A DNA stretch of 21,071 nucleotides. It comes from a virus. The notes beneath the pieces are model-generated. The model saw only the letters and a list, made by a program, of their open reading frames with translations. It searched no databases and was not told where the DNA came from. The DNA lies in the IMG/VR virus record IMGVR_UViG_3300025418_000675, positions 1-21,071 of that record. One strand, written 5' to 3'. The position numbers were made by a program, and so were the translations under genes. Below are positions 10,058-21,071 of the stretch, in pieces (position 1 is the stretch's first letter; each line of letters starts with the position of its first letter).

Positions 10058-10522
10058 TTATTTTCCGTAATTCAAAATTTCTTTTTTATAATCTTCGTCC
10101 CAATAATCGTAGTAATTGGACTTCATCAACTTTTCTCTTGCTTCTTCCAACTTCTTTCTTGGATTAACTAGAATAGTAGGATACTTTCCATTACTTGTAT
10201 TAACGCCATTAATAAAACCAGGATTATCAGGATGGTCTTTTAAGAAAATCATATCGTTACGTTTTGACTGCAACTTAGCTATGATACTCTTTAAATCTTC
10301 ATCTGTCAAATCTTTTTTAAGATTATAAAAAACGATTATTTCAAAATCAGGTGTTGTCTCAATGTATCTTAGTATGTAGGCCACACATTCTTTGCCAATG
10401 TAAGACCAAAATACTTTTTTTTCTTCTAATGCAGACTTTGCATAAGGACAAACATTAAACCCACCAAGTTCATCCTTTTTCTCCGAAATCCTTTGTACCC
10501 AATTGATTAAATCTTTTTCCAA
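10058..10522 (-). CDS. conserved phage hypothetical protein, 154 aa (TTG start)
   Basis: A soluble protein with GGFNVCPYAKSAL at residues 20-32, then alternating strands and helices (EIIVFYNL, TILVNPRKKL) and a Tyr/Asp-rich end (NYYDYWDEDYKKEIL). The CPYAK element recalls bacterial DUF1415-type proteins, but I do not claim membership. The only start that keeps the full conserved N-terminus is TTG at 10520-10522, with GGAG eight bases ahead; it overlaps the primase gene end by 16 bases. No later ATG would leave a sensible protein. Position between primase and NrdA suggests a nucleotide or DNA metabolism role; the function is unknown. Confidence 0.7.
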   Translation of the reverse strand: MEKDLINWVQRISEKKDELGGFNVCPYAKSALEEKKVFWSYIGKECVAYILRYIETTPDFEIIVFYNLKKDLTDEDLKSIIAKLQSKRNDMIFLKDHPDNPGFINGVNTSNGKYPTILVNPRKKLEEAREKLMKSNYYDYWDEDYKKEILNYGK

Positions 10523-11517
10523 TTTACAAACTCCATTTTTGCACGCAAATTTACAAAGGTATTTTTACTTATAAAGTCTTGAATTTCGTCAGGTGAGAAC
10601 CCATCTAACACCATTTCATTAATGTCTTTAGAATCAACGAATTCTGGCCAAATGACTACTTTGAAGTGATTATCAATAGCAGAATTTATTTTTGCTACGA
10701 TTTCTTTGTTACGAGGTTCATTATCAAACACCAAAACAACTTTGGACTTGTCCACGCAATCGGCAATCGATTCTAAATTAGAGTCTGCTGTTGCCACTGC
10801 GTTCTTAATAAACATTGAATCAATTGGTCCTTCAACAACATATACATCTTGATTCAAATCAACTCTATCAAGGCCATAAACCTTTTTAACATCGTCATGT
10901 AACTTTAATGTGATATACCGGAGTTTCGATTCACCCAACGAGCGACCCTGGACAGCCACGAGTTCCTTCTCTTTATTATAAAACGGTATGACGAGCCGTT
11001 TATCGTTCTTGTGAAGGCCTTCTTTTTCAATCCCAAGGCCTTGTATGAAGGTTGCGAAATCTTCCGCATAGTATAGTTGCGAATAGAAGGTCTCCGGAAT
11101 CCGTCTTTGCGAAACATAGTTCTTAGCAAAATGCGCCTCTGGTAATGAGTCGATTGAAGGAAGTTCCAAGGCTTTCTTAAATACTGGTTTTTCAGTTTTA
11201 AATTCATCAAAGCTAGGCGCTGGCGTATTTGCATTTGGTGTACCTTCTTTATATCTTTCTAATTGATATTCTCTAAGTAATGATTCGTCAACTTGTTTCA
11301 GAAAATTATAAAACGTGGTTGATACACCACAATTATGACACATATAGAAGTAGTCATTCTTTTTACGGAATACAAAACCTCGGGCTTTAATTTTATTTTT
11401 CTGCGAGTCGCCACAGAGCGGACACCTGAAATTATATAAATCGGATTTTTTTTGAGAAAACCTTTGTAATTTAGGCGAAACACGGAGCAGGAAAGTCCTG
11501 TCGATAAAAACACTCAT
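10507..11517 (-). CDS. 61: DNA primase (T4 gp61-like, zinc finger plus TOPRIM)
   Basis: A 336 aa primase close in length to T4 gp61 (342 aa), which makes RNA primers with the replicative helicase. The N-terminal zinc-binding domain has C32/C35 (RCPLCGDS) and C60/C63 (MCHNCG). The catalytic TOPRIM fold has EGPID at 229-233 and VFDNE at 263-267. A central region contains the RLVIPFY motif and VQGRSLG, also typical of phage primases. ATG at 11515-11517; the ribosome binding site ahead is weak. The helicase partner (gp41-like) is not in the window. It heads the replication/nucleotide block that runs on through nrdA and nrdB. Secure. Confidence 0.9.
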   Translation of the reverse strand: MSVFIDRTFLLRVSPKLQRFSQKKSDLYNFRCPLCGDSQKNKIKARGFVFRKKNDYFYMCHNCGVSTTFYNFLKQVDESLLREYQLERYKEGTPNANTPAPSFDEFKTEKPVFKKALELPSIDSLPEAHFAKNYVSQRRIPETFYSQLYYAEDFATFIQGLGIEKEGLHKNDKRLVIPFYNKEKELVAVQGRSLGESKLRYITLKLHDDVKKVYGLDRVDLNQDVYVVEGPIDSMFIKNAVATADSNLESIADCVDKSKVVLVFDNEPRNKEIVAKINSAIDNHFKVVIWPEFVDSKDINEMVLDGFSPDEIQDFISKNTFVNLRAKMEFVNWKKI

Positions 11518-11539: not shown

Positions 11540-11953
11540 TTAATGTATAGACTTGATTATTGTATCAATATTTCCATGGGAAATCAACCATGAGATAACA
11601 ACAATACCACCAACAATTGTCCACTTCCATTGCAAAAGTTTATCTAACTGTTCTTTTTCAGCGGTATTGTGGTCAGTAACACACTTACGGAGACCTTTGA
11701 TTTCTTCCATAATTCTTAATTCGGAAGCTTGCATTTTGTCCAAAACGGTATCAATACGGTCATGTATCTCTCTTACATCCGCATCTACCTCTACTCTACG
11801 ATTATCCATGTCTGTGTAAACCTTTGCTATGTGTCGGTCGTGTTGTTCCACCAGTTTTTCGATAACCGCATCTAGTTTATTACAAATTGCTGATAAAGTC
11901 AATACTTGTGTTTTTAAAACACCAACATCAACTTTTAGTTCCTCTTCCGCCAT
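11540..11953 (-). CDS. coiled-coil protein with C-terminal membrane anchor (XhlA-like architecture)
   Basis: A 137 aa protein: a long N-terminal coiled coil (about residues 5-108, heptad-like with NKLDAVIEKL, RIDTVLDKM, EEIKGLRK) followed by one hydrophobic helix (about 110-125, KWTIVGGIVVISWLI) and a short tail. This tail-anchored layout matches hemolysin XhlA-type phage proteins that sit next to holins and endolysins. It is the last gene of the lysis cassette. The ATG (11951-11953) follows the stop of the 57 aa secreted protein by one base. A role in lysis timing or in the membrane is inferred from neighbours and topology. Confidence 0.65.
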   Translation of the reverse strand: MAEEELKVDVGVLKTQVLTLSAICNKLDAVIEKLVEQHDRHIAKVYTDMDNRRVEVDADVREIHDRIDTVLDKMQASELRIMEEIKGLRKCVTDHNTAEKEQLDKLLQWKWTIVGGIVVISWLISHGNIDTIIKSIH

Positions 11954-11954
11954 T

Positions 11955-12128
11955 TTATTTTTTCTTTACGGGGATAGTTGTGGCATCAGCAATAGCTTGA
12001 TGAATCTTTACAGTCTTGCATACCGAAACTGTCTTACCTTTTACCACTTTATCGTGGCAGATTTTTTTGGTTTCTGCTTGTACAGTTAAAGAAAACAAAG
12101 CTAATACGATTAGTAATGATTTTTTCAT
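11955..12128 (-). CDS. small secreted protein, 57 aa, with signal peptide
   Basis: ATG at 12126-12128 with GGAGA ahead, TAA at 11955-11957. The first 18 residues (MKKSLLIVLALFSLTVQA) form a clear Sec signal peptide with cleavage expected after VQA. The mature part is about 39 residues, lysine-rich, with two cysteines (in KICHDK and SVCKTV) that could form a disulfide in the periplasm. It lies between the holin candidate and the tail-anchored protein, separated by one base on each side. No family recognised. A periplasmic role during lysis or in host exclusion is possible but unproven. Confidence 0.75.
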   Translation of the reverse strand: MKKSLLIVLALFSLTVQAETKKICHDKVVKGKTVSVCKTVKIHQAIADATTIPVKKK

Positions 12129-12129
12129 C

Positions 12130-12630
12130 TTATCTCTCCGGCATATTCATAGCAGGACCTAGTGGTTTCAACATAGGTGCTGCAGGGGTTGTTGTAACAG
12201 TTTCAGATACAGTTGTAGTAGTTGAAGCTGGCATTGCAGTTGGTGACATTATTGGTGACATTGGCCTTGGTGCCATTGGCATTGGTGAACCACCCATTGG
12301 TGATGGCATACCTGGTGTTGGTAAACCACCATTATTTGCGCCTGCCATCTTTTCTTGTGTTCTACCATAAGCAGCGATACCAAGAACAGCACCCATAGCA
12401 AGATGAAACAAACCAGCACCTTGTAATGTTAATGGTTGCCATTGACTGGTAACTTGGCCATGATTAAGTGCTTGTAATAAACTCCACAATACAGGCGCAA
12501 ATAAGAAATCAAATAAACAAATAATCATATACATCCAACCCATCATTGGACGCCACTTACTGTTCATCCAATCTTCTTTTTTCTTCTCGCTATCGCTGAG
12601 TTGTTTATATTCTTTTTCTGTATCTGGCAT
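12130..12630 (-). CDS. holin candidate, two TM helices and Pro/Met/Thr-rich tail
   Basis: A 166 aa membrane protein placed directly after the endolysin gene (TAA and ATG abut). It has a charged N-terminus, WRPMMGWMYMIICLFDF with a first membrane helix at about 30-54, a second at about 69-89, and then a low-complexity tail (95-166) of Pro, Met, Ala and Thr with no further helix. The WRPxxGW start matches the pattern of three-TM/GTA-type holin families, common in phages of aquatic bacteria. The function as holin is inferred from topology, motif and its place beside the GH19 endolysin. The long tail is not typical of holins. Confidence 0.72.
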   Translation of the reverse strand: MPDTEKEYKQLSDSEKKKEDWMNSKWRPMMGWMYMIICLFDFLFAPVLWSLLQALNHGQVTSQWQPLTLQGAGLFHLAMGAVLGIAAYGRTQEKMAGANNGGLPTPGMPSPMGGSPMPMAPRPMSPIMSPTAMPASTTTTVSETVTTTPAAPMLKPLGPAMNMPER

Positions 12631-13239
12631 TTAGGCACCAAGTACTTGTAATGCGTGCTGATAGTGTTGTTTTCTTTCTGCTTCACCTAAAGAACCACCA
12701 TTGATGATGTGTGAAATTTGGTCAATATCACCATTATCTGCGTGAGCATTTAGATTGGCATTTTCCCAAAAATAACAAGCAGACTGTACGGCACCTTCAA
12801 ATGTACCCATATAAGCAGGAACATCTTCTACTGACATTTGAATTGAATCAGCAAATGCTTGATAGTTGTCTTTACCAGTCAATTGAATTAGACCACGACC
12901 ACAATATTTCCAACCATCACCAGAAGCCTCATCGCCGTTACCCATGCGACCAGCGTAAGCACGATTAGCGATTGCTTCTGGATTGTGTTGATATTGTTCA
13001 GCAATTTCTAATGTTTGAAAATGTGAAGGCCATGTTCTATGTAAAGATTCTGCCTTATAGTTCAGATTCTCTTGGATTGCGGTGAAATTAGCAGATTCAA
13101 CACAGCACTCACCCATAAATGCAGCAACACGCAAAGGTGAAGTGATATCATATTGTGGCAAAATTTTATTTAATGCCTCAACCCATTGTTCAGCGTATGG
13201 ATTATTAGGTACAATTGCGTGAAATTCTTCTAAAGTCAT
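12631..13239 (-). CDS. endolysin, glycoside hydrolase family 19 (chitinase-like muramidase)
   Basis: A 202 aa single-domain GH19 lysin. Typical elements are FMGECCVESANF at residues 41-52, with E48 as likely catalytic glutamate, RTWPSHF at 68-74, RAYAGRMGNGDEASGDGW at 93-110, and the family hallmark YCGRGLIQLTGKDNY at 112-126. Phage GH19 enzymes cut the glycan backbone of peptidoglycan. There is no signal peptide or cell-wall binding domain, so release to the periplasm must depend on a holin, consistent with the next gene. ATG 13237-13239 with AAGGA ahead. Secure family call. Confidence 0.92.
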   Translation of the reverse strand: MTLEEFHAIVPNNPYAEQWVEALNKILPQYDITSPLRVAAFMGECCVESANFTAIQENLNYKAESLHRTWPSHFQTLEIAEQYQHNPEAIANRAYAGRMGNGDEASGDGWKYCGRGLIQLTGKDNYQAFADSIQMSVEDVPAYMGTFEGAVQSACYFWENANLNAHADNGDIDQISHIINGGSLGEAERKQHYQHALQVLGA

Positions 13240-13248
13240 TTTTAATCC

Positions 13249-13608
13249 TTATGATGGTTGTGCTAATGTTGCTGGTGGCGCTTCTGGTGCTACTACAATT
13301 TGACTTGCTTGTGAGGCAGCAATAGTAGCATGAAGTTGTGCTTCTGCGGTTAAAGCCTGAACTTGTGCTGTGGCTTCATCGGCAGCTGCCTTAGCTGCAT
13401 CTGATGCCTTCTGCGATAGTTCTGCTGCGTCTTTAATTGCTAACGCCAATTCAGATTTAAGTGTATCTACTTTTGCGTTTGCATTAGCCGCATCAATTTT
13501 GGCTTGTGCAAAAATGGAAGTTAAATCACTTTTGATTACAGATTCAAATTTCTGTACATCTTTTACCAATGTTTCTTTTTCTTTTTCAAACAAATTCAAA
13601 ATACTCAT
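13249..13608 (-). CDS. Ala-rich coiled-coil protein, 119 aa
   Basis: Starts MSILNLFEKEKETLVKDVQK at ATG 13606-13608, with GGAG six bases ahead; the GGAG overlaps the stop of the 68 aa gene. A GTG start eight codons earlier is open but has no such site. The body is almost all helix with heptad-like Ala/Lys/Glu repeats (about residues 5-100, with runs such as AAELSQKASDAAKAAADEA) and ends in a Pro/Ala tail (APEAPPATLAQPS). No membrane segment. It lies between the spanin genes and the endolysin. Function unknown; a structural or membrane-associated rod is likely from composition. Confidence 0.7.
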   Translation of the reverse strand: MSILNLFEKEKETLVKDVQKFESVIKSDLTSIFAQAKIDAANANAKVDTLKSELALAIKDAAELSQKASDAAKAAADEATAQVQALTAEAQLHATIAASQASQIVVAPEAPPATLAQPS

Positions 13609-13618
13609 TTCAATCTCC

Positions 13619-13825
13619 TCAATAAATTGCACTTACGATTTGTACCACGTTTAACAAAACTGCTCTTGCTTCTTGGTCTAATTCAAACTCATCAGCGTTT
13701 GCATCAATTTGACCTTGAATGTTTAAATCTTCTACCAATTCTTTAAAGTCTGCGGCAGAAAGTTGACCAGCATTATATTGGTTCTGATACTCTTGTGCCT
13801 GAATGGCAATATCTCTTATACTCAT
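13619..13825 (-). CDS. hypothetical helical protein, 68 aa
   Basis: A short acidic protein, mostly helix: MSIRDIAIQAQEYQNQYNAG, then LSAADFKELVEDLNIQGQID and a hydrophobic C-terminal helix (AVLLNVVQIVSAIY). No signal or clear membrane segment. ATG 13823-13825 overlaps the upstream lipoprotein stop by four bases, so coupled. Small proteins of this type occur in lysis cassettes of T4-like aquatic phages as I recall, but I cannot name a family. Confidence 0.65.
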   Translation of the reverse strand: MSIRDIAIQAQEYQNQYNAGQLSAADFKELVEDLNIQGQIDANADEFELDQEARAVLLNVVQIVSAIY

Positions 13826-14181
13826 CTTGGTTTACTCCCCGTAACTTGTTGAATTCGTTCGGCCGATTTAGCTATGATATTTAGTTTTGCTTTACAATAT
13901 GCTTCGCCTGGATTTTCTTTATTGTGTAATTCTTCTATTAATCTAAACAAGTCGGTAGTTAATTTAATTTCTGCTTCATTATTTGGTAGATACTGGCTAT
14001 AATTTTTTAATTCAGCACCATCCAAATATAACATTTCAATAATATTATGACCACAAGAATTTAGTTCAGCAATTGTTCTAATTTGAGTTACCAAATAATA
14101 TTCATTGGCATCGTAAGGCCCAATCATCAAAGAACAACCTGTTACTAGACAAAATAGCGAACTGACTAGTAATTTTTTCAT
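13822..14181 (-). CDS. predicted lipoprotein, 119 aa
   Basis: MKKLLVSSLFCLVTGC at the N-terminus is a lipoprotein signal with lipobox LVTG-C; the lipidated Cys would be C16. The following SLMIGPYDANEYY has no Asp at position +2, so outer-membrane sorting is expected. The mature part is helical, with three further cysteines in the precursor (C11 in the signal, C43, C96). It overlaps the Rz1-like gene stop by four bases (ATGA) and thus continues the spanin module. It is not proline-rich like Rz1. It could be a second lysis factor or a superinfection-exclusion lipoprotein; the family is not recognised. Confidence 0.75.
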   Translation of the reverse strand: MKKLLVSSLFCLVTGCSLMIGPYDANEYYLVTQIRTIAELNSCGHNIIEMLYLDGAELKNYSQYLPNNEAEIKLTTDLFRLIEELHNKENPGEAYCKAKLNIIAKSAERIQQVTGSKPR

Positions 14182-14462
14182 GGATTCAATTCTTTCTGTT
14201 GTTTAACCCAATTCTGTAATGCTTTTAATTGGTCTGCGGTTAAATGGTAAGTACCATAATTCTCTGCAATTATTTTTTCAGCATCTGATAACTCTACATT
14301 ACTTTCCGGTAATACCTGTAAATCCGTTGGCGGTACCATCAGTTGATCCGGTGGAGTTGGGAACGGAATTCGTAGCGGCGTAGTTGTGCAAGCGGATAAA
14401 AGAACCAGGCAGCTTACACAAGCTATCATCTTTAGTTGTAATATACTTAATAATCGTTTCAT
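14178..14462 (-). CDS. Rz1-like outer-membrane spanin lipoprotein (o-spanin)
   Basis: A 94 aa lipoprotein starting at ATG 14460-14462, which has AAAGG seven bases ahead. The frame is open to an earlier ATG (14481-14483), but that one lacks a ribosome binding site. The signal (MKRLLSILQLKMIACVSCLV) ends in the lipobox LLSAC with lipidated C25, and the mature chain begins with proline-rich TTTPLRIPFPTPPDQLMVPP, as in Rz1. It begins inside the i-spanin gene in another frame (14299-14462 shared) and runs beyond its end, the overlapped Rz/Rz1 layout. Together they bridge inner and outer membranes and disrupt the latter in the last step of lysis of Gram-negative cells. Confidence 0.85.
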   Translation of the reverse strand: MKRLLSILQLKMIACVSCLVLLSACTTTPLRIPFPTPPDQLMVPPTDLQVLPESNVELSDAEKIIAENYGTYHLTADQLKALQNWVKQQKELNP

Positions 14463-14778
14463 TTTTCGCCTTTGTTGCTTCATGAGTTTTTATATAATCA
14501 TCGAGCGCTTGTTTTGTAATATCTTTTTGGTCCGAAACAACTTGGTTGATTTTTGCTTCTTCATCCACTAAAACATCACGTCTTCCATCTATATAGAATC
14601 CCGAAGCAAACAAGATAACGCCAAGTAATTCTATAACAATTACTGCAATAAACCTGTACATAACAGGAATTAAAAATTTAAAAAATTGGACCAGAACAAA
14701 AAGGGCAACACCGAAACCGATAATTGCCCATGGCATCCAACTTGGAATTAGTCCTAAGAACCAATTTATACTAAACAT
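14299..14778 (-). CDS. Rz-like inner-membrane spanin (i-spanin)
   Basis: A 159 aa protein with two hydrophobic N-terminal helices (about residues 17-36 and 41-62), then a periplasmic coiled coil (64-116, RRDVLVDEEAKINQVVSDQK) and a C-terminal CKLPGSFIRLHNYAA at 121-135, which resembles the end of many Rz proteins. Classical Rz has one N-terminal helix, so the second one is unusual. The o-spanin gene starts inside it in another frame. ATG 14776-14778 overlaps the stop of the 69 aa gene by eight bases. With the o-spanin it forms the spanin complex. Confidence 0.8.
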   Translation of the reverse strand: MFSINWFLGLIPSWMPWAIIGFGVALFVLVQFFKFLIPVMYRFIAVIVIELLGVILFASGFYIDGRRDVLVDEEAKINQVVSDQKDITKQALDDYIKTHEATKAKNETIIKYITTKDDSLCKLPGSFIRLHNYAATNSVPNSTGSTDGTANGFTGITGK

Positions 14779-14980
14779 ATTCTACTTTTATCCATTCATA
14801 ATCTGAAAACTGATAACTCATATGAGCTTTGTATTCAACTTTCAACTTATCAAATTTAAATTTAATCCATTCCGCTAATGAAGCACTATCAAGTCCACGG
14901 ACTCTGATATATGTAACACCATCTTCTTTTTTTACTTCTGCTTTTAAGTGAAATGATTCCCAAATGGCTTCAACAATCAC
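14771..14980 (-). CDS. hypothetical protein, 69 aa (GTG start)
   Basis: GTG start at 14978-14980, with AAAGGA seven bases ahead; the preceding stop TAA abuts it (TAAGTG). An alternating strand/helix pattern (SFHLKAEVKK, VTYIRVRGL, SLAEWIKFKFDKL, SYQFSDYEWIKVEYV) suggests a compact alpha/beta fold without membrane segments. No family recognised. It lies between the small CTS-bearing protein and the spanin genes. Confidence 0.65.
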   Translation of the reverse strand: MIVEAIWESFHLKAEVKKEDGVTYIRVRGLDSASLAEWIKFKFDKLKVEYKAHMSYQFSDYEWIKVEYV

Positions 14981-15274
14981 TTAAAAGTCCTTTCGTTTAC
15001 CCATTCCCATTGGCAACCGTGGATCTGCGTGTTTCTTTTTGTGTTTTCTTAAATCAACACCAGGTTCGCCTTGTTTACCAACACCGATACCTGCAACAGC
15101 ACCACCGCCAGCAGTATTAGTTGGTCCGCCACCGCCTGCGGCGCCAGCACCCATTTCATTTAATTCATCTTCTTTAACGCAAGAACCTTTTGAGAATGCT
15201 GTTTTTCCTGGTACTGGTTTATAACCAGTCCAGCAGCGACCTTTTTCTTCTAAGTATTTTTTAAATGAAATCAT
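14981..15274 (-). CDS. putative internal head protein with capsid-targeting-like leader, 97 aa
   Basis: Begins MISFKKYLEE, very similar to the leader of the DUF6321-like protein at 19212-19733 and in form to the T4 capsid-targeting sequence that ends in [L/I]-x-E. It continues with CWTGYKPVPGK...CVKED, a short two-Cys module also seen in that protein (CWKGYTAVG...CVPEE). A second L-x-E site (LNE-M, 38-41) precedes a Gly/Ala-rich flexible stretch and then a basic tail with HKKKHADPRLPMGMG. Known: T4 internal proteins are targeted into the prohead by such leaders, which gp21 removes. Inferred here: this is a packaged protein. ATG at 15272-15274 overlaps the 128 aa gene stop by four bases. Confidence 0.62.
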   Translation of the reverse strand: MISFKKYLEEKGRCWTGYKPVPGKTAFSKGSCVKEDELNEMGAGAAGGGGPTNTAGGGAVAGIGVGKQGEPGVDLRKHKKKHADPRLPMGMGKRKDF

Positions 15275-15657
15275 ATGTTCCTTAATATCTCTGCGATATT
15301 CATATCTACTGGTATATCAGCAGACCGAATGTTTTTACCATTTATACCCCAAATCATTTCAGGCATAATACCCAAATATGATAGGAATGTTTTCAATATG
15401 TCATAGTCTCGTTCATCAATTCTATAAAATAATATTCTTGATGTGACTTCTGGACCAAAAACATTATTCAATAAAATGATATGGTTTAATATCAATCTTT
15501 CTTTGAGAGTTTTGGTGACCTTATATCTACGAAATAATCGTTTGAGATATTTGGTTCTTTTGATATCTCCCTCAAATTCAGACATAACACAATTAGGCGA
15601 TTCATAACACTTCATTGCGTACATCATAAAATTATCTTCATTCAAATCATCAAACAT
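15271..15657 (-). CDS. conserved phage protein, 128 aa (DUF7207-like)
   Basis: I recognise this as a widely conserved small protein of T4-like phages that I remember as DUF7207: YESPNCVMSEFEGDIKRTKY, LKERLILNHIILLNNVFGPE, RILFYRI and a C-terminal L-P-D-like IPVDMNIAEILRNI. Helical, soluble, charged. The function is unknown to me; homologues lie among head and tail genes. ATG 15655-15657 follows a strong hairpin by seven bases. The name is from memory and should be checked against Pfam. Confidence 0.75.
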   Translation of the reverse strand: MFDDLNEDNFMMYAMKCYESPNCVMSEFEGDIKRTKYLKRLFRRYKVTKTLKERLILNHIILLNNVFGPEVTSRILFYRIDERDYDILKTFLSYLGIMPEMIWGINGKNIRSADIPVDMNIAEILRNI

Positions 15658-15664
15658 AATTAAA

Positions 15665-15686
15665 ATGGGTACCCGTAGGTACCCAT
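15665..15686 (-). terminator. perfect 9-bp hairpin, probable terminator or mRNA-stabilising element
   Basis: ATGGGTACC at 15665-15673, loop CGTA, GGTACCCAT at 15678-15686. On the minus strand the stem follows the stop of the 214 aa structural gene and is followed by TTTTAATT just before the ATG of the 128 aa gene. Stem is perfect but the T-run is short, so it may be a partial terminator or a processing/stability element that sets a high level of the structural gene. Confidence 0.7.
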
Positions 15687-15698
15687 CCCTATAATATA

Positions 15699-16343
15699 TT
15701 AAACGCCAGCAATAAAATTACCAAAACTTGTGTTTGCTGAACTTGTGTTTGATGCAGTAGCGTTAGCAAGTGCAACCAAAGTCTCTTTCAAATAACGCAC
15801 TGTACCATCAGCGTTGACTTTCTTCTGTACATGAACCCAACCTTGAGTCATATTACCAACTTGAGTAGCAGTAATACCTGTTGGTAAATTGGTTGATGTA
15901 TTAGCACAACGAGTTGCAGTCATCAAAATGGTGTCAGAATTGTATGTGGTTTCTACTGTCTTGTTTGAATTGTAAGCAATTGCTTTATCAAATTCAACAG
16001 TCCAACCAGCATTTGCTGGACCAAACAAATTATTTGACAATGTGATAGTATTGCCGCTAATTGTAGAAATCTGAGTATTAGATTCAAAGAATCCTGGTGT
16101 ACCGTTACCGGACAAACCACCAACGTTATTTGCACCTAATGTATAGAAGTAAACCCATTGACCAACAGCAGCACCAACGTTAGCTACGTTGTTCTGTGCA
16201 CCATCGTTATAAGCAACTTGAATAACGTTGTTACCAGCTGTATTACCGGTACGAACCGTAAATTGTAATACTTCTCTTGTTTCACGTTCCACATCAAATT
16301 TTGGCTTTTGATTGTGGTTATCTGTATTTCCCCATGTTGGCAT
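15699..16343 (-). CDS. putative virion structural protein, 214 aa
   Basis: Begins MPTWGNTDNHNQKPKFDVER and ends with GWVHVQKKVNADGTVRYLKE and then ETLVALANAT... Asn/Thr/Gly-rich beta-strand composition throughout, with no signal or membrane segment. I recall similar proteins starting with WGNTD and ending in an ETLVAL stretch among structural proteins of T4-like cyanophages and related phages. The ribosome binding site is very strong (AAGGAG six bases before ATG 16341-16343), and a hairpin follows the gene, which suggests high, insulated expression as for a structural protein. The specific role (decoration, head or neck) is not known. Confidence 0.7.
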   Translation of the reverse strand: MPTWGNTDNHNQKPKFDVERETREVLQFTVRTGNTAGNNVIQVAYNDGAQNNVANVGAAVGQWVYFYTLGANNVGGLSGNGTPGFFESNTQISTISGNTITLSNNLFGPANAGWTVEFDKAIAYNSNKTVETTYNSDTILMTATRCANTSTNLPTGITATQVGNMTQGWVHVQKKVNADGTVRYLKETLVALANATASNTSSANTSFGNFIAGV

Positions 16344-16375
16344 CTTATTCTCCTTGTAAGCCTTTGGTTATGTTT

Positions 16376-17653
16376 CTATTTATCTTTCTTCTTATCTTCT
16401 TTTTTCTTATCTTTATCATCTTTTTTCGTGACATCTGGTTGACCAGGACGGTTTCTCATCATTGGATCAATCTCTACATCGTCACGCTTCTCACCAGTTA
16501 GTGTAGTACCACCGGTCAATACTGCAGCGGCCTGTGGTTTCTTTTCACCATGACTGTCTTTTTCATCGGCTTTTTCATGCTTAGGTTTCTTACCATAAGT
16601 TGCAACCGATTTATCTTCTTTTTCGTGGTCGTACATATCTTCCTTGACCATACGCTTATTTTTGTATAATGCCTTAATCATACGAGCAGATTTAGATAAT
16701 TGTTTCTTTTTTTCAGACACAGGTTCTAATTGAGCATTAGGTAAACCATCGGCATTGGTGGCTGCCTTGGCGTCACCAACATCTTCTTTAGTAGAAATCA
16801 ATTTTCCTTTTTTATGACCTTTTACAAATTTTTCAATATCTTTATCGTGTTTTTTATCTGCTTTTTTCTGTAAGGAATGTAACAAAGGTGAAACATCTTC
16901 TTTATTAACTTGTTTTTGTAAACGGTCAATAGCAGATGACATACCAGAACCATCTTTAGATTGCTTTTTTTCAATATCAGCGTGTTTCTTTTCACGTTCA
17001 GCTGATGCCTTACGAAACTTTTCTAATGCAGTATCTTTACTTGCCGCTTCGCCAAACAAAGTTTTTTTGATGACGCTAGCACGACTAAGTTCTTGTAATT
17101 TGGCTTCTTCGACTTTACTTTTCATACTAGTTTCTGTAATTCCCAAATAAGACAATAATTGTTTCAATAAGAATCTATTGTTCCATGCTTTTGTCATTGG
17201 ATCTTGTTTTTTTGTATCTTCCATAGTAACTTCTTCTGGTGTCAATTTAGTAGTTTGACTTGCTTCACCTTTAATAGGATTTTGGTGAGGATGTGTCGTT
17301 ACTGGTTTAATTGTATAATGTGAAGCCACTTTTTGTAAAGATTTTTGTCTACGCAATGTTGGTGAATGAATGTCTAAAGAACGAGCATCGCCATCTTTTC
17401 TTTGAGTAGTCATATCTTCATTCATATGTCTTTCTTTCCATTTTAGAAAAGCATTAGACTTAGAATGAGCAATCTTAGTATCTTTCGAAACATATTGTGG
17501 GTCGATACCTTTAGATTGTAGATATTGATTTAATGTAGCAGATTCAGCAACTTGATGCTTAGCTGAATACTGACCTAACTGGCTAGGGTTTGTAAAATTG
17601 GTGCCCCTAGCCGGTTCAGGATTCTTCTTAACGATATCTTTAAACTTTTTCAT
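16376..17653 (-). CDS. Lys/Glu-rich disordered protein, 425 aa (putative head-internal)
   Basis: A highly charged, low-complexity protein. It starts MKKFKDIVKKNPEPARG, then has more ordered parts (NQYLQSKGIDPQYVSK, AFLKWKERHMNED at about 68-80, and NRFLLKQLLSYLGITETSM in the middle), and ends with a lysine/aspartate tail (DKDKKKEDKKKDK). Candidate [L/I/V]-x-E sites include VAE-S, ITE-T, VEE-A and LQE-L. A related style is seen in the 510 aa neighbour. T4-like phages pack many basic, lysine-rich proteins in the head core; here that is an inference from composition and neighbours. ATG at 17651-17653 follows the 510 aa gene stop by nine bases. No family recognised. Confidence 0.65.
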   Translation of the reverse strand: MKKFKDIVKKNPEPARGTNFTNPSQLGQYSAKHQVAESATLNQYLQSKGIDPQYVSKDTKIAHSKSNAFLKWKERHMNEDMTTQRKDGDARSLDIHSPTLRRQKSLQKVASHYTIKPVTTHPHQNPIKGEASQTTKLTPEEVTMEDTKKQDPMTKAWNNRFLLKQLLSYLGITETSMKSKVEEAKLQELSRASVIKKTLFGEAASKDTALEKFRKASAEREKKHADIEKKQSKDGSGMSSAIDRLQKQVNKEDVSPLLHSLQKKADKKHDKDIEKFVKGHKKGKLISTKEDVGDAKAATNADGLPNAQLEPVSEKKKQLSKSARMIKALYKNKRMVKEDMYDHEKEDKSVATYGKKPKHEKADEKDSHGEKKPQAAAVLTGGTTLTGEKRDDVEIDPMMRNRPGQPDVTKKDDKDKKKEDKKKDK

Positions 17654-17662
17654 ATGAGTCTC

Positions 17663-19195
17663 TTAGTTAGAAATCTTACCCATCATTGTTTCTTTTTTCA
17701 ACTTCTTAAATGATTGGCGAGCCAAATCACGAGCACGGCTCATTGGTGTATGAACTGCACCAGATTTATCTTTAACATTCTTTGGCATCTTTTCCCAACC
17801 TGGACTACCAGCAATTACTTTCTCATCCATTTGAACTTCTTCATGAGTAATTTGGTGTTCGGAAGAAAAATGAGATTGTGGAGTTGGATGACCTAATTTG
17901 TCGTCAAGCTTGATATCTACGGCACCTGGATTTGTAGTAATCTTTTGTTTCTCTCTTGTATCTTCACCTTTTTCGATTTGCTTAGGTACTGGTTCTTCAC
18001 CAGCAGTTTTCAAATCTACTTTATAGTTTTTGAAAGAATTGATTTTGCCGCCAGCAACACGACCTTTTAACATATCTGTGGTAACTTTATCACTAGATTT
18101 ATCAACTTGTACTTCAACATCTTCTTTCATCTTCATTTTGATTGGCTCATGTTTTTCAACAGCAGACAATTTGTAATGACGATAAGCATGAGTTCTCAAT
18201 AAGTCTTTGGCTTGTTCCATTGCATCTTCATCATTCTTAGCAGTCAATAGAGCCATACTTGCCCATTTGCCAGTCTTTGGATCATCAAAGTGAGCAGCAT
18301 GAGTAATGTTTGCTTCTTCTAATGTTTCTTCTTTGATTTCTGGTTTGCCTTTAAGAAAACGACCAAGTTGTGTCATTGTACCTTTAACAGTACCTGGTTT
18401 GTGTTTCAAATATGCCTTATCAGCAATATCAGTATTCTTTGCTGGAGATGCTTCATCCAATTCTTCACCTTCGTATTCATCAGAAGAATCTTCTTTCATT
18501 GCTTGCTTAGTAGCAGTAGCATACATTACATTCTTCCAATTCTTACCATAACGTTGTTTGAAACCAGCTTCGCCTTTTTTCATAGACATAACAATCTTTT
18601 CACGCTTCTTCATTTGAGCGTCAGACATTTCTTCTTCACCAAGATTATTATCGGTGAAAATTTCATCTGTACCAGAACTTTTTGCTTCGTGAATTGCTAA
18701 TAATTTTTCAGCAAAAGTAAGGCCTTCCATTTTAACTGTATTCTTTTGGCCTTTGTGCATAGTCACATTGTGGTGACCAACTTCTTTTTTAGCAATCTTC
18801 TTTGCTTCTGGTTCAGTAATACAATCTTTAGATTCTTCTTTCATGTCCTTAGCTTTAGGACCTTTAACATCATCAACAGAATGTTTAGTTTGGTCAGCAC
18901 GAGCTTTCTTAGAATTACCGTAACTAGAACCATAAACTTTCATGCCTGTTGGTGTAGGTACTTTCTCAGCCGCTTCATCCATTTCAATTGCTTCTGCATG
19001 AGACTTTGCTGTAACAGGATATTTTTTACCTTGAAACTCAAAATGAGATTGATTGGCTTTCTTGGCAGCATGAGCAGCTTTGTGAAAACCAGTTTCATCC
19101 ATTTCTGCGTCAGTAATCATTTTCTTTTTATCTTCTTCCAAAACTTGATTAACTGCGTCAATCATAGATTGGGATACTAAGGTCTTTGCAAACAT
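17663..19195 (-). CDS. large modular disordered protein, 510 aa (candidate processed head protein)
   Basis: Short recognisable modules are separated by charged linkers. FHKAAHAAKKANQSHFEFQG at 37-56 and MSDAQMKKREKIVMSMKKG to KNVMYATATKQAM (190-233) resemble pieces I recall from many T4-like phage proteins. A compact alpha/beta-looking module lies at 296-350 (THAAHFDDPKTGKWASMALL ... SAVEKHE), and GAVHTPMSRARDLARQSFKK at 479-498 closes the protein. Between modules are [L/I]-x-E sites: LEE-D (19-22), IHE-A (168-171), LDE-A (246-249), LEE-A (292-295). These resemble the T4 gp21 prohead-protease consensus, so the protein may be cut into several internal peptides. ATG 19193-19195 with AGGAG ahead. 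Function is not known; processing is inference. Confidence 0.68.
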   Translation of the reverse strand: MFAKTLVSQSMIDAVNQVLEEDKKKMITDAEMDETGFHKAAHAAKKANQSHFEFQGKKYPVTAKSHAEAIEMDEAAEKVPTPTGMKVYGSSYGNSKKARADQTKHSVDDVKGPKAKDMKEESKDCITEPEAKKIAKKEVGHHNVTMHKGQKNTVKMEGLTFAEKLLAIHEAKSSGTDEIFTDNNLGEEEMSDAQMKKREKIVMSMKKGEAGFKQRYGKNWKNVMYATATKQAMKEDSSDEYEGEELDEASPAKNTDIADKAYLKHKPGTVKGTMTQLGRFLKGKPEIKEETLEEANITHAAHFDDPKTGKWASMALLTAKNDEDAMEQAKDLLRTHAYRHYKLSAVEKHEPIKMKMKEDVEVQVDKSSDKVTTDMLKGRVAGGKINSFKNYKVDLKTAGEEPVPKQIEKGEDTREKQKITTNPGAVDIKLDDKLGHPTPQSHFSSEHQITHEEVQMDEKVIAGSPGWEKMPKNVKDKSGAVHTPMSRARDLARQSFKKLKKETMMGKISN

Positions 19196-19211
19196 TTTTA
19201 TTCTCCTGTTT

Positions 19212-19733
19212 TTATCTGCATTTCCACTTGCGTAATGCTAGTGCTTTTCTTGTTGGTTCACCGTTTGGTTTCTTCATTGGTCCCTTCATGCCGCCCATGC
19301 GAGCACAAAATGACTTTCTACGTTTAGCTGCTTTACTACCGGCTTTTACTTTACCAGTTACAGCTCTTTTTAATTTAGATCCTGGATTTTCTCTACGATA
19401 AGATGCAATACCTTTTGCATTTAAACCACCAGTAGGATTCTTGCCTTCTTTTCTACGCCAAGCAGCAGATTCGTATAATTCTTCGTCTGAAACATCTTCC
19501 AGTTCTTCCCAAATAGATTCAGGATCAACACCGTTTTGTTCTGCCATATCGTATACAACTTCTTCGAGTATGTCGAACAATTCTTCTGGATTATATTCTT
19601 CAGGTACACAATTAGGTACTGTACGGCCATTTTTCTCTTTTGTACCAACAGCAGTATAACCTTTCCAACAGGCTTTCTTTAAAGCACCGGTAGGTTTTGC
19701 AACTTCATTTAAGTATTTTTTAAAAGATATCAT
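19212..19733 (-). CDS. DUF6321-like basic protein with capsid-targeting-like leader, 173 aa
   Basis: Three parts. MISFKKYLNE (1-10) resembles the T4 capsid-targeting leader ending in L-x-E. A CWKGYTAVG...NCVPEE module (22-46) and an acidic stretch (46-88) follow. From about residue 89 comes the domain I recall as DUF6321: SAAWRRKEGKNPTGGLNAKG, a basic KAGSKAAKRRKSFCARMGG and a C-terminal KKPNGEPTRKALALRKW. The site LYE-S (86-89) lies exactly between acidic and basic parts, and would free the basic domain if cut by a gp21-like protease. The basic part likely binds DNA. ATG 19731-19733 overlaps the upstream stop by four bases. The family is from memory; processing is inferred. Confidence 0.72.
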   Translation of the reverse strand: MISFKKYLNEVAKPTGALKKACWKGYTAVGTKEKNGRTVPNCVPEEYNPEELFDILEEVVYDMAEQNGVDPESIWEELEDVSDEELYESAAWRRKEGKNPTGGLNAKGIASYRRENPGSKLKRAVTGKVKAGSKAAKRRKSFCARMGGMKGPMKKPNGEPTRKALALRKWKCR

Positions 19734-21071
19734 TTCTTATCCTTAATCCATTTATCTGGAATCTTATCATGTTTCTTTTTAAAATCATCATGCAAATTTT
19801 TACCGGTAATACCGTGTTTACTTGCAATATTCTGCATCAATCTATCAATAGAATCATAACTATGACTATCTAATTTTTTCAAACCAGTTTCTAATTCTGA
19901 AACATGGTTTTCATTGAACTTCTTTTTCTTCTTCTTAACAATTTGTATACCAATATTACGGTTTGGGTCTTTGTAGGTATCCATGCCTTCTTTGTTGCTG
20001 GCACCACCTAAAACACCGCCAAGTCCAGATTCGCCATCATTTTGAAAACCATTAAACTCTTTAAAAGTTAATTTTTTCTTCTTCTTCTCGGATAAAGGAT
20101 TTGGTTCTACCTTAGCTCCAAGCATTGCTGTACCGTTCTGACTGGCATTACTATATTCTTGTGTTTCACCGTAAAGGTTCTGGCCAAGTCCGGCACCTGC
20201 TGCGGCACCTTGACCACCTGCTCTTGTATCGTATTCTCCGCTTACACCATCAGGTCTACCGACCCTTCCTGCACTTAACGACTTATCGCCACGTTTTATT
20301 TTTTTGTTTTTGTCGTTGTCTTTTTGGAAGTTAGGTTCTTTGGGCGGGCCGCTGATTTTGAGCGTGGGCGCTGCTTCGTTGTAGGCGCCGTGCCATGCTC
20401 CGCCGGAGTGGCCTTGACCGTTCGGGTCTTTGCGTGGGCCTGTACCGCCTTTGATTTGGTCTCTGGAACCGACAAGACTTCCGGAGTTGTCTGGCTTGAT
20501 GTCTGCTGGACCTTTGGCTCGGAAGAAGTTGTTGTATCTTCCGATGGTTTTTTGCTGAATAGATTTAGAATTTTTCTTAACATTATCTTCTCCAAATAAA
20601 CTTACATTTCTATTTAACCAATCGGTGGCGGACTCATTTGTTGCTCTGGAGTCCAAAAACTCTTTGGTGGACTGGTATATATTAGTTATATCCTCTTCCT
20701 TGGTATCTAGGTTTCCTGTGTTGTCAAAGGTTACTAAATTGCCATACATTTCACTAAATTGTGTAATGTTTTGTTGAGATTTAACCCACTTATCATATCG
20801 TACAGATTCAGCCATCATTCTGGACAATAATGAATTTCTTTCCTGACTAGTTTCATTAGTAGTATGAACAAAAATCATCATGGTATCGTAACCAAGTTCT
20901 TCTAGTTCTTCTTTAATGTAAGATATCTTTTCATTGTCATCGGCAGGACCATTAATAATCAATGGACCACGAGCACGAATTGCTTCTCTGCGGAAATCAT
21001 TAGTTTTCTCAGATAATTTTTGTTTATCGGCCAAATAATCTCTAGCTTGAATAAAATTCAATTCTACAATC
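19730..21071 (-). CDS. P-loop kinase-like protein with long disordered tail (partial, N-terminus outside window)
   Basis: The frame has no stop up to base 21071, and its first possible start inside (TTG at 21061) is not convincing, so the N-terminus, including the P-loop, lies outside. Visible part: RREAIRARGPLIINGPADD (24-42), then YIKEELEELGYDTMMIFVHT (48-67) and TNETSQERN (68-76), the C-terminal half of a zeta-toxin/P-loop-kinase-like domain that I recall from T4-like phages. After about residue 150 it becomes Gly/Asn/Lys-rich and disordered, with LSEKKKKKLTFKEFN (323-337) and a helical C-terminus. A GC-rich island and an overlapping reading frame lie in its Gly-rich part. Residue numbers count from the TTG. 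Confidence 0.7.
   Translation of the reverse strand, partial: IVELNFIQARDYLADKQKLSEKTNDFRREAIRARGPLIINGPADDNEKISYIKEELEELGYDTMMIFVHTTNETSQERNSLLSRMMAESVRYDKWVKSQQNITQFSEMYGNLVTFDNTGNLDTKEEDITNIYQSTKEFLDSRATNESATDWLNRNVSLFGEDNVKKNSKSIQQKTIGRYNNFFRAKGPADIKPDNSGSLVGSRDQIKGGTGPRKDPNGQGHSGGAWHGAYNEAAPTLKISGPPKEPNFQKDNDKNKKIKRGDKSLSAGRVGRPDGVSGEYDTRAGGQGAAAGAGLGQNLYGETQEYSNASQNGTAMLGAKVEPNPLSEKKKKKLTFKEFNGFQNDGESGLGGVLGGASNKEGMDTYKDPNRNIGIQIVKKKKKKFNENHVSELETGLKKLDSHSYDSIDRLMQNIASKHGITGKNLHDDFKKKHDKIPDKWIKDKK
20296..20583 (-). CDS. possible overprinted gene inside the kinase-like gene, 95 aa
   Basis: A frame different from that of the host gene but on the same strand: ATG 20581-20583, GGAG six bases ahead, TAA at 20296-20298. 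The product is MLRKILNLFSKKPSEDTTTS..., a short amphipathic start followed by a Ser/Thr/Pro/Lys-rich chain ending SKKTTTKTKK, so basic and probably disordered. It overlaps the Gly-rich linker (about residues 160-255) of the host gene. Long open frames are expected by chance in GC-rich DNA, and the GGAG here also encodes FGED in the main frame. I list it as a candidate only. Confidence 0.35.
   Translation of the reverse strand: MLRKILNLFSKKPSEDTTTSSEPKVQQTSSQTTPEVLSVPETKSKAVQAHAKTRTVKATPAEHGTAPTTKQRPRSKSAARPKNLTSKKTTTKTKK

Follow-up and report, generated by a model that had tools for sequence, protein, structure and literature searches.

The closest described system to the genes studied here is the capsid-targeting sequence (CTS) of bacteriophage T4, found in IPI, IPII, IPIII and Alt. 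It is N-terminal and ten residues long, with aromatic residues at positions 4 and 7, L or I at 8 and E at 10. Of the IPIII residues, 4 and 7 are the main ones for targeting, and 8 and 10 for processing (review PMC9026906, citing Mullaney and Black 1996). A second group for comparison are the virion enzymes of the cyanomyoviruses S-CREM2, S-SZBM1 and S-SCSM1, detected by mass spectrometry (MS; PMC10665884, PMC9146016, PMC9602691). We have analysed a 21-kb virus fragment from IMG/VR (record IMGVR_UViG_3300025418_000675, positions 1 to 21,071); the whole of this stretch is called the window. It contains two genes for small proteins, at 14981-15274 and 19212-19733, which we will name by their first coordinate. 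Their source is a freshwater T4-superfamily (T4-like) phage. Both genes probably encode internal virion proteins with a T4-type capsid-targeting sequence, M-x-[ST]-F4-K-x-[FY]7-[LI]8-x-E10, which we will call the leader.

The leader and its distribution

14981..15274, minus strand: gene of a 97-residue protein with leader, CW-GY module and gp23-arm-like stretch (reading frame, comparison with relatives)
15245..15274, minus strand: leader of the 14981 protein, residues 1-10, MISFKKYLEE (reading frame, column conservation, positional enrichment, T4 control)
19212..19733, minus strand: gene of a 173-residue protein with leader, CW-GY module, acidic helical segment and DUF6321 domain (reading frame, Pfam, relatives, model)
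19704..19733, minus strand: leader of the 19212 protein, residues 1-10, MISFKKYLNE (same basis as the 14981 leader)

An initial annotation of this DNA had described the two open reading frames (ORFs) and their common start. Both are present on the minus strand, and the plus strand there is interrupted by stops. Residues 1-8 are identical and E10 is found in both proteins: the 14981 protein begins with MISFKKYLEE followed by KGRCWTGYKPVPGKTAFSKGSCVKEDE, the 19212 protein with MISFKKYLNE followed by VAKPTGALKKACWKGYTAVGTKEKNGRTVPNCVPEE. The prohead protease gp21 is predicted to cut both leaders after E10.

The leader was studied in 161 sequences, which comprise the window and viral loci related to either gene and contain 2593 unique called ORFs. 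The motif counted was [FY]-x-x-[FYLWM]-[LIVM]-x-E. It starts at residue 4 in 134 ORFs, which corresponds to 52 per 1000 versus 0.14 per 1000 at internal positions, a positional enrichment of about 370-fold. Since these loci were gathered with the two window genes themselves, the parts after residue 11 were clustered. The 148 leader proteins fall into 15 body clusters, which include DUF6267, cytidylyltransferase-like, HAD-like and several unnamed bodies. One of them, cluster 12, is dUTPase-like with PE at the end of the motif, and its match is probably due to chance. Thus the search for the same leader on unrelated bodies, suggested in the initial annotation, gives at least 14 credible ones.

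The columns of residues 4, 7, 8 and 10 have a conservation of 4.0, 3.2, 2.1 and 3.5 bits, the highest beyond M1, and coincide with the targeting and processing residues of T4 IPIII. The proteins used for these values had been picked with the motif, so a non-circular test was made with proteins picked by residues 1-5 alone (M-x-[ST]-F-K, n=102). F or Y is found at residue 7 in 85% of them, L, I or V at residue 8 in 87% and E at residue 10 in 82%; the same columns in other ORFs give 11%, 28% and 7%. After removal of related bodies E10 is kept in 14 of 21. When the leader profile (columns 4-10) is run over T4, 3 of 270 genes match, with 0.46 expected: ipII, ipIII and 61.1.

A 264-residue HAD-like protein in locus L017 (MKTFKQHLDD...) has D in place of E at residue 10 and an arm-like stretch with PTN, of the kind described below, at its C-terminus. 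In T4, D at residue 10 permits targeting and blocks processing (PMC9026906).

Comparison with T4

The leader shares with the T4 CTS its N-terminal position, its length, its conserved residues and its presence on unrelated bodies. The relatives of the window also have gp21, as well as gp23 with L-x-E junctions. It differs from the CTS by having F4 instead of Y4, with K5 common, and by its bodies, which are DUF6321, CW-GY, DUF6267 and cytidylyltransferase-like, not homologues of the internal proteins. The mature bodies of both window proteins have no PHROG or Pfam match to T4 internal proteins.

Among 35 related contigs gp21 (PF03420) is found in 10 and gp23 in 11. Ten of the 11 contigs with gp23 have gp21; in the exception gp23 sits at the contig end. 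We did not find gp21 in contig G001, a 56-kb extension of the window, which also has no gp23: the head region is therefore simply outside the covered DNA. The gp23 junctions end in L-x-E in all examined cases (LNE, LTE, LAE, LSE, LQE, LME, LGE; FIAE in RB49). The aromatics of leader positions 4 and 7 are absent from the freshwater gp23 sites, which fits the division of labour in T4, where cleavage by the protease depends on residues 8 and 10 and targeting on 4 and 7.

Similar starts are apparent in other genomes of the superfamily. RB49 (102832-103068) and 44RR (114768-114998) have related proteins of 76-78 residues with leaders MISFKRFLVE and MLSFKSYLHE, which are candidate internal proteins. 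In KVP40, ORFs 37733-39178 and 39187-39834 and others have leader-like starts (MLGNFDSFLSE, MKQFCNFLAE); these two ORFs adjoin a second gp23-like gene at 36321-37145.

Virion proteins of related cyanophages

For S-CREM2 (48% GC), whose annotated proteins were used, 52 of 219 proteins are listed in the virion (PMC10665884, Table 3). All four non-lytic, non-structural enzymes detected there carry the leader. It is MKDFDSFLEE in the SAM hydrolase, MKRFDAFLTE in the APH-like kinase and MKNFSSFLTE in the cytidylyltransferase; the Cas9-like virion protein (OR473000 7704-10313, locus L218) has RFASFMAE at residues 18-25. The FASFMAE motif (residues 19-25) suggests that this Cas9-like protein is packaged as cargo. 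The leader-bearing enzymes have up to 28 unique peptides in virions (PMC10665884). A looser form of the leader is found in the virion proteins gp13 (MKDLHSFLTE) and gp136 (MQTFSMFFSE).

The strict pattern has three matches in S-CREM2, all of them virion proteins, versus none in the 167 non-virion proteins (p=0.013). When all 219 proteins are ranked with the profile, the top three are virion proteins and the next one is at 5.7 bits, with all non-virion proteins below 6 bits. When all head and other virion proteins are compared in a rank test, the result is not significant (p=0.07): the leader therefore marks a subset of virion proteins. In the two other phages a leader-bearing cytidylyltransferase, S-SZBM1_140 (MRFRQFIIE; PMC9146016), and a leader-bearing NMNAT, S-SCSM1_91 (MKSFLQFLKE; PMC9602691), have been detected in virions. 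With the three phages pooled, five of eight leader proteins are virion-detected and 1.4 are expected (p=0.006).

In each of the three cyanophages the genes upstream of primase-nrdA-nrdB form a cluster for virion proteins. It contains gp154, gp155, gp156 and gp160 in S-CREM2, _136, _139 and _140 in S-SZBM1, and _89, _90, _91, _92, _93, _95 and _97 in S-SCSM1. The cyanophage cytidylyltransferases occupy this locus, and their family also includes the gene upstream of 19212. The virion enzymes have the same leader as the window proteins, although the published accounts, in their available parts, do not mention it (PMC10665884, PMC9146016, PMC9602691).

The CW-GY module and the 19212 protein

15179..15235, minus strand: CW-GY module of the 14981 gene, C14-C32, CWTGYKPVPGKTAFSKGSC (sequence)
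19608..19670, minus strand: CW-GY module of the 19212 gene, C22-C42 (invariant residues in relatives, predicted hairpin)
19224..19445, minus strand: DUF6321 domain (PF19846), residues 97-170 of the 19212 protein (Pfam E=7.9e-24, 84.5 bits, cut-off 28.5)

The second claim of the initial annotation was a module CW[TK]GY...C-V-x-E, which is indeed present in both proteins. In the 19212 protein C22, W23, G25, Y26, K32 and C42 are invariant in 27 relatives. The AlphaFold2 model of this protein (pTM 0.30) has a leader helix at residues 4-12, the CW-GY region as a small beta-hairpin at 26-44, and the helices of DUF6321; no PDB match was found by fold or by sequence. Both DUF6321 and CW-GY are conserved and contain cysteine. 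PHROG and Pfam searches with the window proteins gave DUF6321 and unnamed families only. Among the cyanophage locus proteins compared, the best matches of the 19212 protein are S-SCSM1_29, which also has the CW-GY and DUF6321 motifs, and S-CREM2 gp137; both are annotated or tabulated as virion proteins (PMC9602691, PMC10665884).

The related loci contain 87 CW-GY proteins, 49 of them with the leader, and the module is also found in the leaderless virion-detected proteins S-CREM2 gp160 and S-SZBM1_139. A role as a shared docking piece, which had been suggested for it, is therefore not established. The central part of that proposal, a T4-type capsid-targeting leader on two packaged proteins, finds good support in the presence of the leader on unrelated bodies, the blind recovery of ipII and ipIII, the gp21 and gp23 genes of related contigs and the detection of relatives in virions.

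Probable copies of the gp23 arm

15053..15154, minus strand: gp23-arm-like stretch of the 14981 gene, residues 41-74, MGAGAAGGGGPTNTAGGGAVAGIGVGKQGEPGVD, directly after ELNE (resembles freshwater gp23)

The 14981 protein has a second L-x-E after its CW-GY module, ELNE at residues 37-40. There ELNE is followed by MGAGAAGGGGPTNTAGGGAVAG, which resembles freshwater gp23, where QLNE is followed by TAVSSAPTNVTGSGISN: a PTN..G motif and the preceding LNE are common to both. In the related loci the PTN stretch is present in 26 of 185 leader proteins versus 27 of 2408 others, often right after the leader. The 14981 protein has no PHROG match (E<=0.01), including the T4 61.1 families phrog_1823 and phrog_2086, and no Pfam match; tblastn against the phage collection gave only short, weak matches. 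Of the S-CREM2 and S-SCSM1 locus proteins compared, the virion-detected S-CREM2 gp160 matches the 14981 protein best.

We searched 17 T4-superfamily genomes in six frames, each with the N-terminal arm of its own gp23. In eight of them the best match adjoins the primase gene, within 602 bases; the chance of a match within that distance is about 2% per genome. The best match scores 69-98 in T4, RB49, 44RR, KVP40, Syn9, S-CREM2 and S-SCSM1, with the next one at 38-42 and shuffled arms at 51 or less; in phiM12 it scores 46 versus 40. The search does not beat shuffles in G004, S-SZBM1, S-CREM1, P-SSM2, S-PM2 and HTVC008M, nor in the freshwater contigs G003, G008 and G017, where the arm is too short alone. 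For the 14981 protein the claim of an arm therefore rests on motif and layout, which make it a likely member of the gp23-arm family.

In T4 the match is gp61.1 (NC_000866 18966-19130, locus L247; phrog_1823 / phrog_2086), whose gene is next to the primase gene: its leader MKTFKEFIKE is followed by DMVAGDSGGNPENISIGTTSGAVVNKGP, to be compared with gp23, where FGSFLTE is followed by AEIGGDHGYNATNIAAGQTSGAVTQIGP. The leader is also present on the arm-copy protein of RB49, as it is in T4. S-CREM2 gp160 has 17 of 24 residues identical with its own gp23 arm; the profile phrog_696 (major head protein) matches it as well (E=4.8e-10). Both S-CREM2 gp160 and S-SCSM1_97 are MS-detected virion proteins (PMC10665884, PMC9602691). 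These two and T4 gp61.1 are the clear cases of an arm copy. Over all clades, the copies agree better with the arm of their own clade than with that of others (p<0.0001); the same test is not significant within clades. Automatic annotations reflect the likeness, with 'putative head morphogenesis protein' in T2 and 'major capsid protein' in others. In the literature covered we found no publication on the likeness of 61.1 to the gp23 arm; the phi-pp2 paper only lists 61.1, and gp61.1 is not seen in the passages considered on the Morganella MP1 proteome.

The layout of gp61.1 recurs in freshwater members, for example L074. The 14981 protein differs from gp61.1 by the inserted CW-GY module and by an arm which follows the short freshwater gp23 arm (PTN..G). 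Its gene agrees with those of the cyanophages in direction and in having DUF7207 as neighbour, but the primase gene is about 3.5 kb away and separated from it by lysis-type genes. We tentatively propose, although we hold it to be somewhat less probable than the contrary, that T4-superfamily phages conserve beside the primase a small virion protein which copies their own gp23 arm and in some lineages is joined to the leader or to CW-GY. Such a protein would regulate assembly or act as a second address, for the capsid wall; with the leader it would make up a modular system that loads enzymes, even a Cas9, into virions for delivery.

Gene organization of the window

10507..11517, minus strand: primase gene, positional anchor common to T4 gene 61 and the cyanophages (tblastn to 18 genomes)
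15271..15657, minus strand: DUF7207 gene (phrog_407), conserved neighbour of the 14981 gene (Pfam E=1.8e-36)
15699..16343, minus strand: gene of a 214-residue protein related to S-SCSM1_95 (local alignment score 74, next best 43)
16376..19195, minus strand: two Lys/Glu-rich genes between leader-bearing genes, 16376-17653 and 17663-19195 (ORFs)
19730..21061, minus strand: 3' two thirds of a 683-residue cytidylyltransferase-fusion gene, with its start (MKSFLELVEE...) beyond the window (whole gene in G001)

The genes all lie on the minus strand and are arranged as is usual in T4-superfamily phages, with a series of uncharacterised ones followed by primase, nrdA and nrdB; the last two we take to be such from the look of their sequences. 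Contig G001 (locus L003) has 99.8% identity to the window over 20.5 kb, and there the operon continues upstream. Its order is a DUF6267 gene (MQSFKTFLKE), the 683-residue cytidylyltransferase fusion (MKSFLELVEE), the 19212 gene, the two Lys/Glu-rich genes, the 214-residue gene, the DUF7207 gene, the 14981 gene, lysis-type genes and primase. Four of the eight genes which precede the lysis-type block start with a leader of the same kind; that of the cytidylyltransferase fusion is a weaker form (7.6 bits with the leader profile).

The fusion gene has a CTP_transf_like domain and a weak zeta-toxin/ATPase-like segment. The ORF with a TTG start listed at 19730-21061 is an artefact of the contig end. 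Leader-bearing DUF6267 proteins (L003 2316-3497 and relatives) have the motif K-[YWF]-DG-[SA]-P, which to us recalls the KxDG of nucleotidyl-transferring ligases. The Lys/Glu-rich genes have no family match in PHROG or Pfam, and the product of the second one begins with MFAKTLVSQSMIDAVNQVLEE. Between the 14981 gene and primase (11540-14980) we recognised by eye what is presumably a lysis cassette, with a putative chitinase-like endolysin (12631-13239) and a putative lipoprotein-like spanin pair (14178-14778). Relatives of the DUF7207 gene are found at the same place in the cyanophages, S-SCSM1_96 and S-CREM2 gp159. S-SCSM1_95 is annotated as tail fibre and as a virion protein (PMC9602691).

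Possible function and alternative explanations

If the leader works as in T4, F4 and Y7 would bind the prohead core during assembly and take the protein inside; gp21 would then cut after E10, and the body would be freed in the DNA-filled head. It could leave the head with the DNA, since ejection would follow from its position. The leader would be a portable address label, fused to bodies as different as cytidylyltransferase-like, DUF6267, HAD-like and CW-GY/DUF6321. In the 14981 protein the second L-x-E and the arm-like stretch probably add a contact to the capsid wall or core, maybe where the gp23 arms bind. We infer in this way packaging in this phage, cleavage, ejection and a role in the cell. 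Defence against restriction, mentioned in the initial annotation, is possible; nothing in the sequence points to restriction as the target, and the neighbours with a leader resemble nucleotidyltransferases and DUF6267 proteins.

Several points weigh against internal virion proteins with a capsid-targeting leader. T4 ipI and alt escape the leader profile, which is therefore specific but not complete. gp21 is seen in related contigs, not in the 21-kb fragment itself, and the predicted cleavage after E10 rests on the match of L-x-E to the gp23 junctions. Virion detection covers the relatives S-CREM2, S-SZBM1 and S-SCSM1, not this phage. The leader proteins S-SZBM1_191, S-SZBM1_192 and S-SCSM1_30 (105-165 residues) are not detected in virions, and the pooled test without S-CREM2, where the pattern was first seen, gives two of five (p=0.16). 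This leader is absent from S-CREM2 gp160 and S-SCSM1_97, which are nevertheless found in virions. Whether such proteins are cargo or co-purified contaminants is left undecided in the MS papers (PMC10665884, PMC9146016, PMC9602691); the presence of the leader on virion enzymes favours cargo.

These points leave room for other explanations. The small leader proteins might be prohead-core or assembly proteins, which do their work in the prohead and are degraded there as are T4 gp67, gp68 and gp22, and not cargo for the next host. The gp23-like processing site and arm of the 14981 protein would agree with such a fate, neither body has a recognisable effector domain in PHROG or Pfam, and scaffold and protease themselves occur in virions (PMC10665884). 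However, the leader is also found on enzyme-like bodies without an obvious assembly role (cytidylyltransferase, SAM hydrolase, kinase, Cas9), and such enzymes remain detectable in virions, with up to the 28 unique peptides given above; we consider this explanation rather unlikely. That the proteins belong to the tail or baseplate, with a leader that binds something other than the prohead core, is quite improbable. A relative of a neighbour, S-SCSM1_95, is indeed annotated as tail fibre, and the gene of the DUF6321 protein S-SCSM1_29 is flanked by tail-fibre and terminase genes, but the leader has a gp21-type site at its end and agrees with the T4 head-targeting sequence, and the arm-like stretch copies a capsid protein, not a tail protein.

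The leader could also be simply inherited: gene duplication and domain shuffling would have spread this N-terminus through a set of non-virion proteins, and it would have no targeting role today. Domains are visibly shuffled in these loci and some leader proteins are undetected in virions. Against this stand the constraint on residues 4, 7, 8 and 10, the same as in T4 IPIII and across unrelated bodies, the enrichment of the carriers in virions and the blind recovery of T4 ipII and ipIII, so that we give it very little credit. As to a common start due to chance or pure paralogy, neighbouring genes of one operon can be paralogues, but an enrichment of about 370-fold over at least 14 unrelated bodies in 161 sequences, together with the clustering of bodies and the test with residues 1-5, refutes it practically beyond doubt.

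As the probable address of internal virion proteins, the leader unites the scattered and puzzling virion enzymes of aquatic phages as one predictable class: a gene with this tag is a candidate for head cargo. It bears on the doubt between cargo and contaminant in published proteomes, in favour of cargo. Where a T4-like phage is known from metagenomes alone, the sequence would allow proteins that are packaged, and probably injected, to be called. With the copy of the gp23 arm, T4 gene 61.1 acquires, as do its counterparts, a role in head assembly that can be tested.

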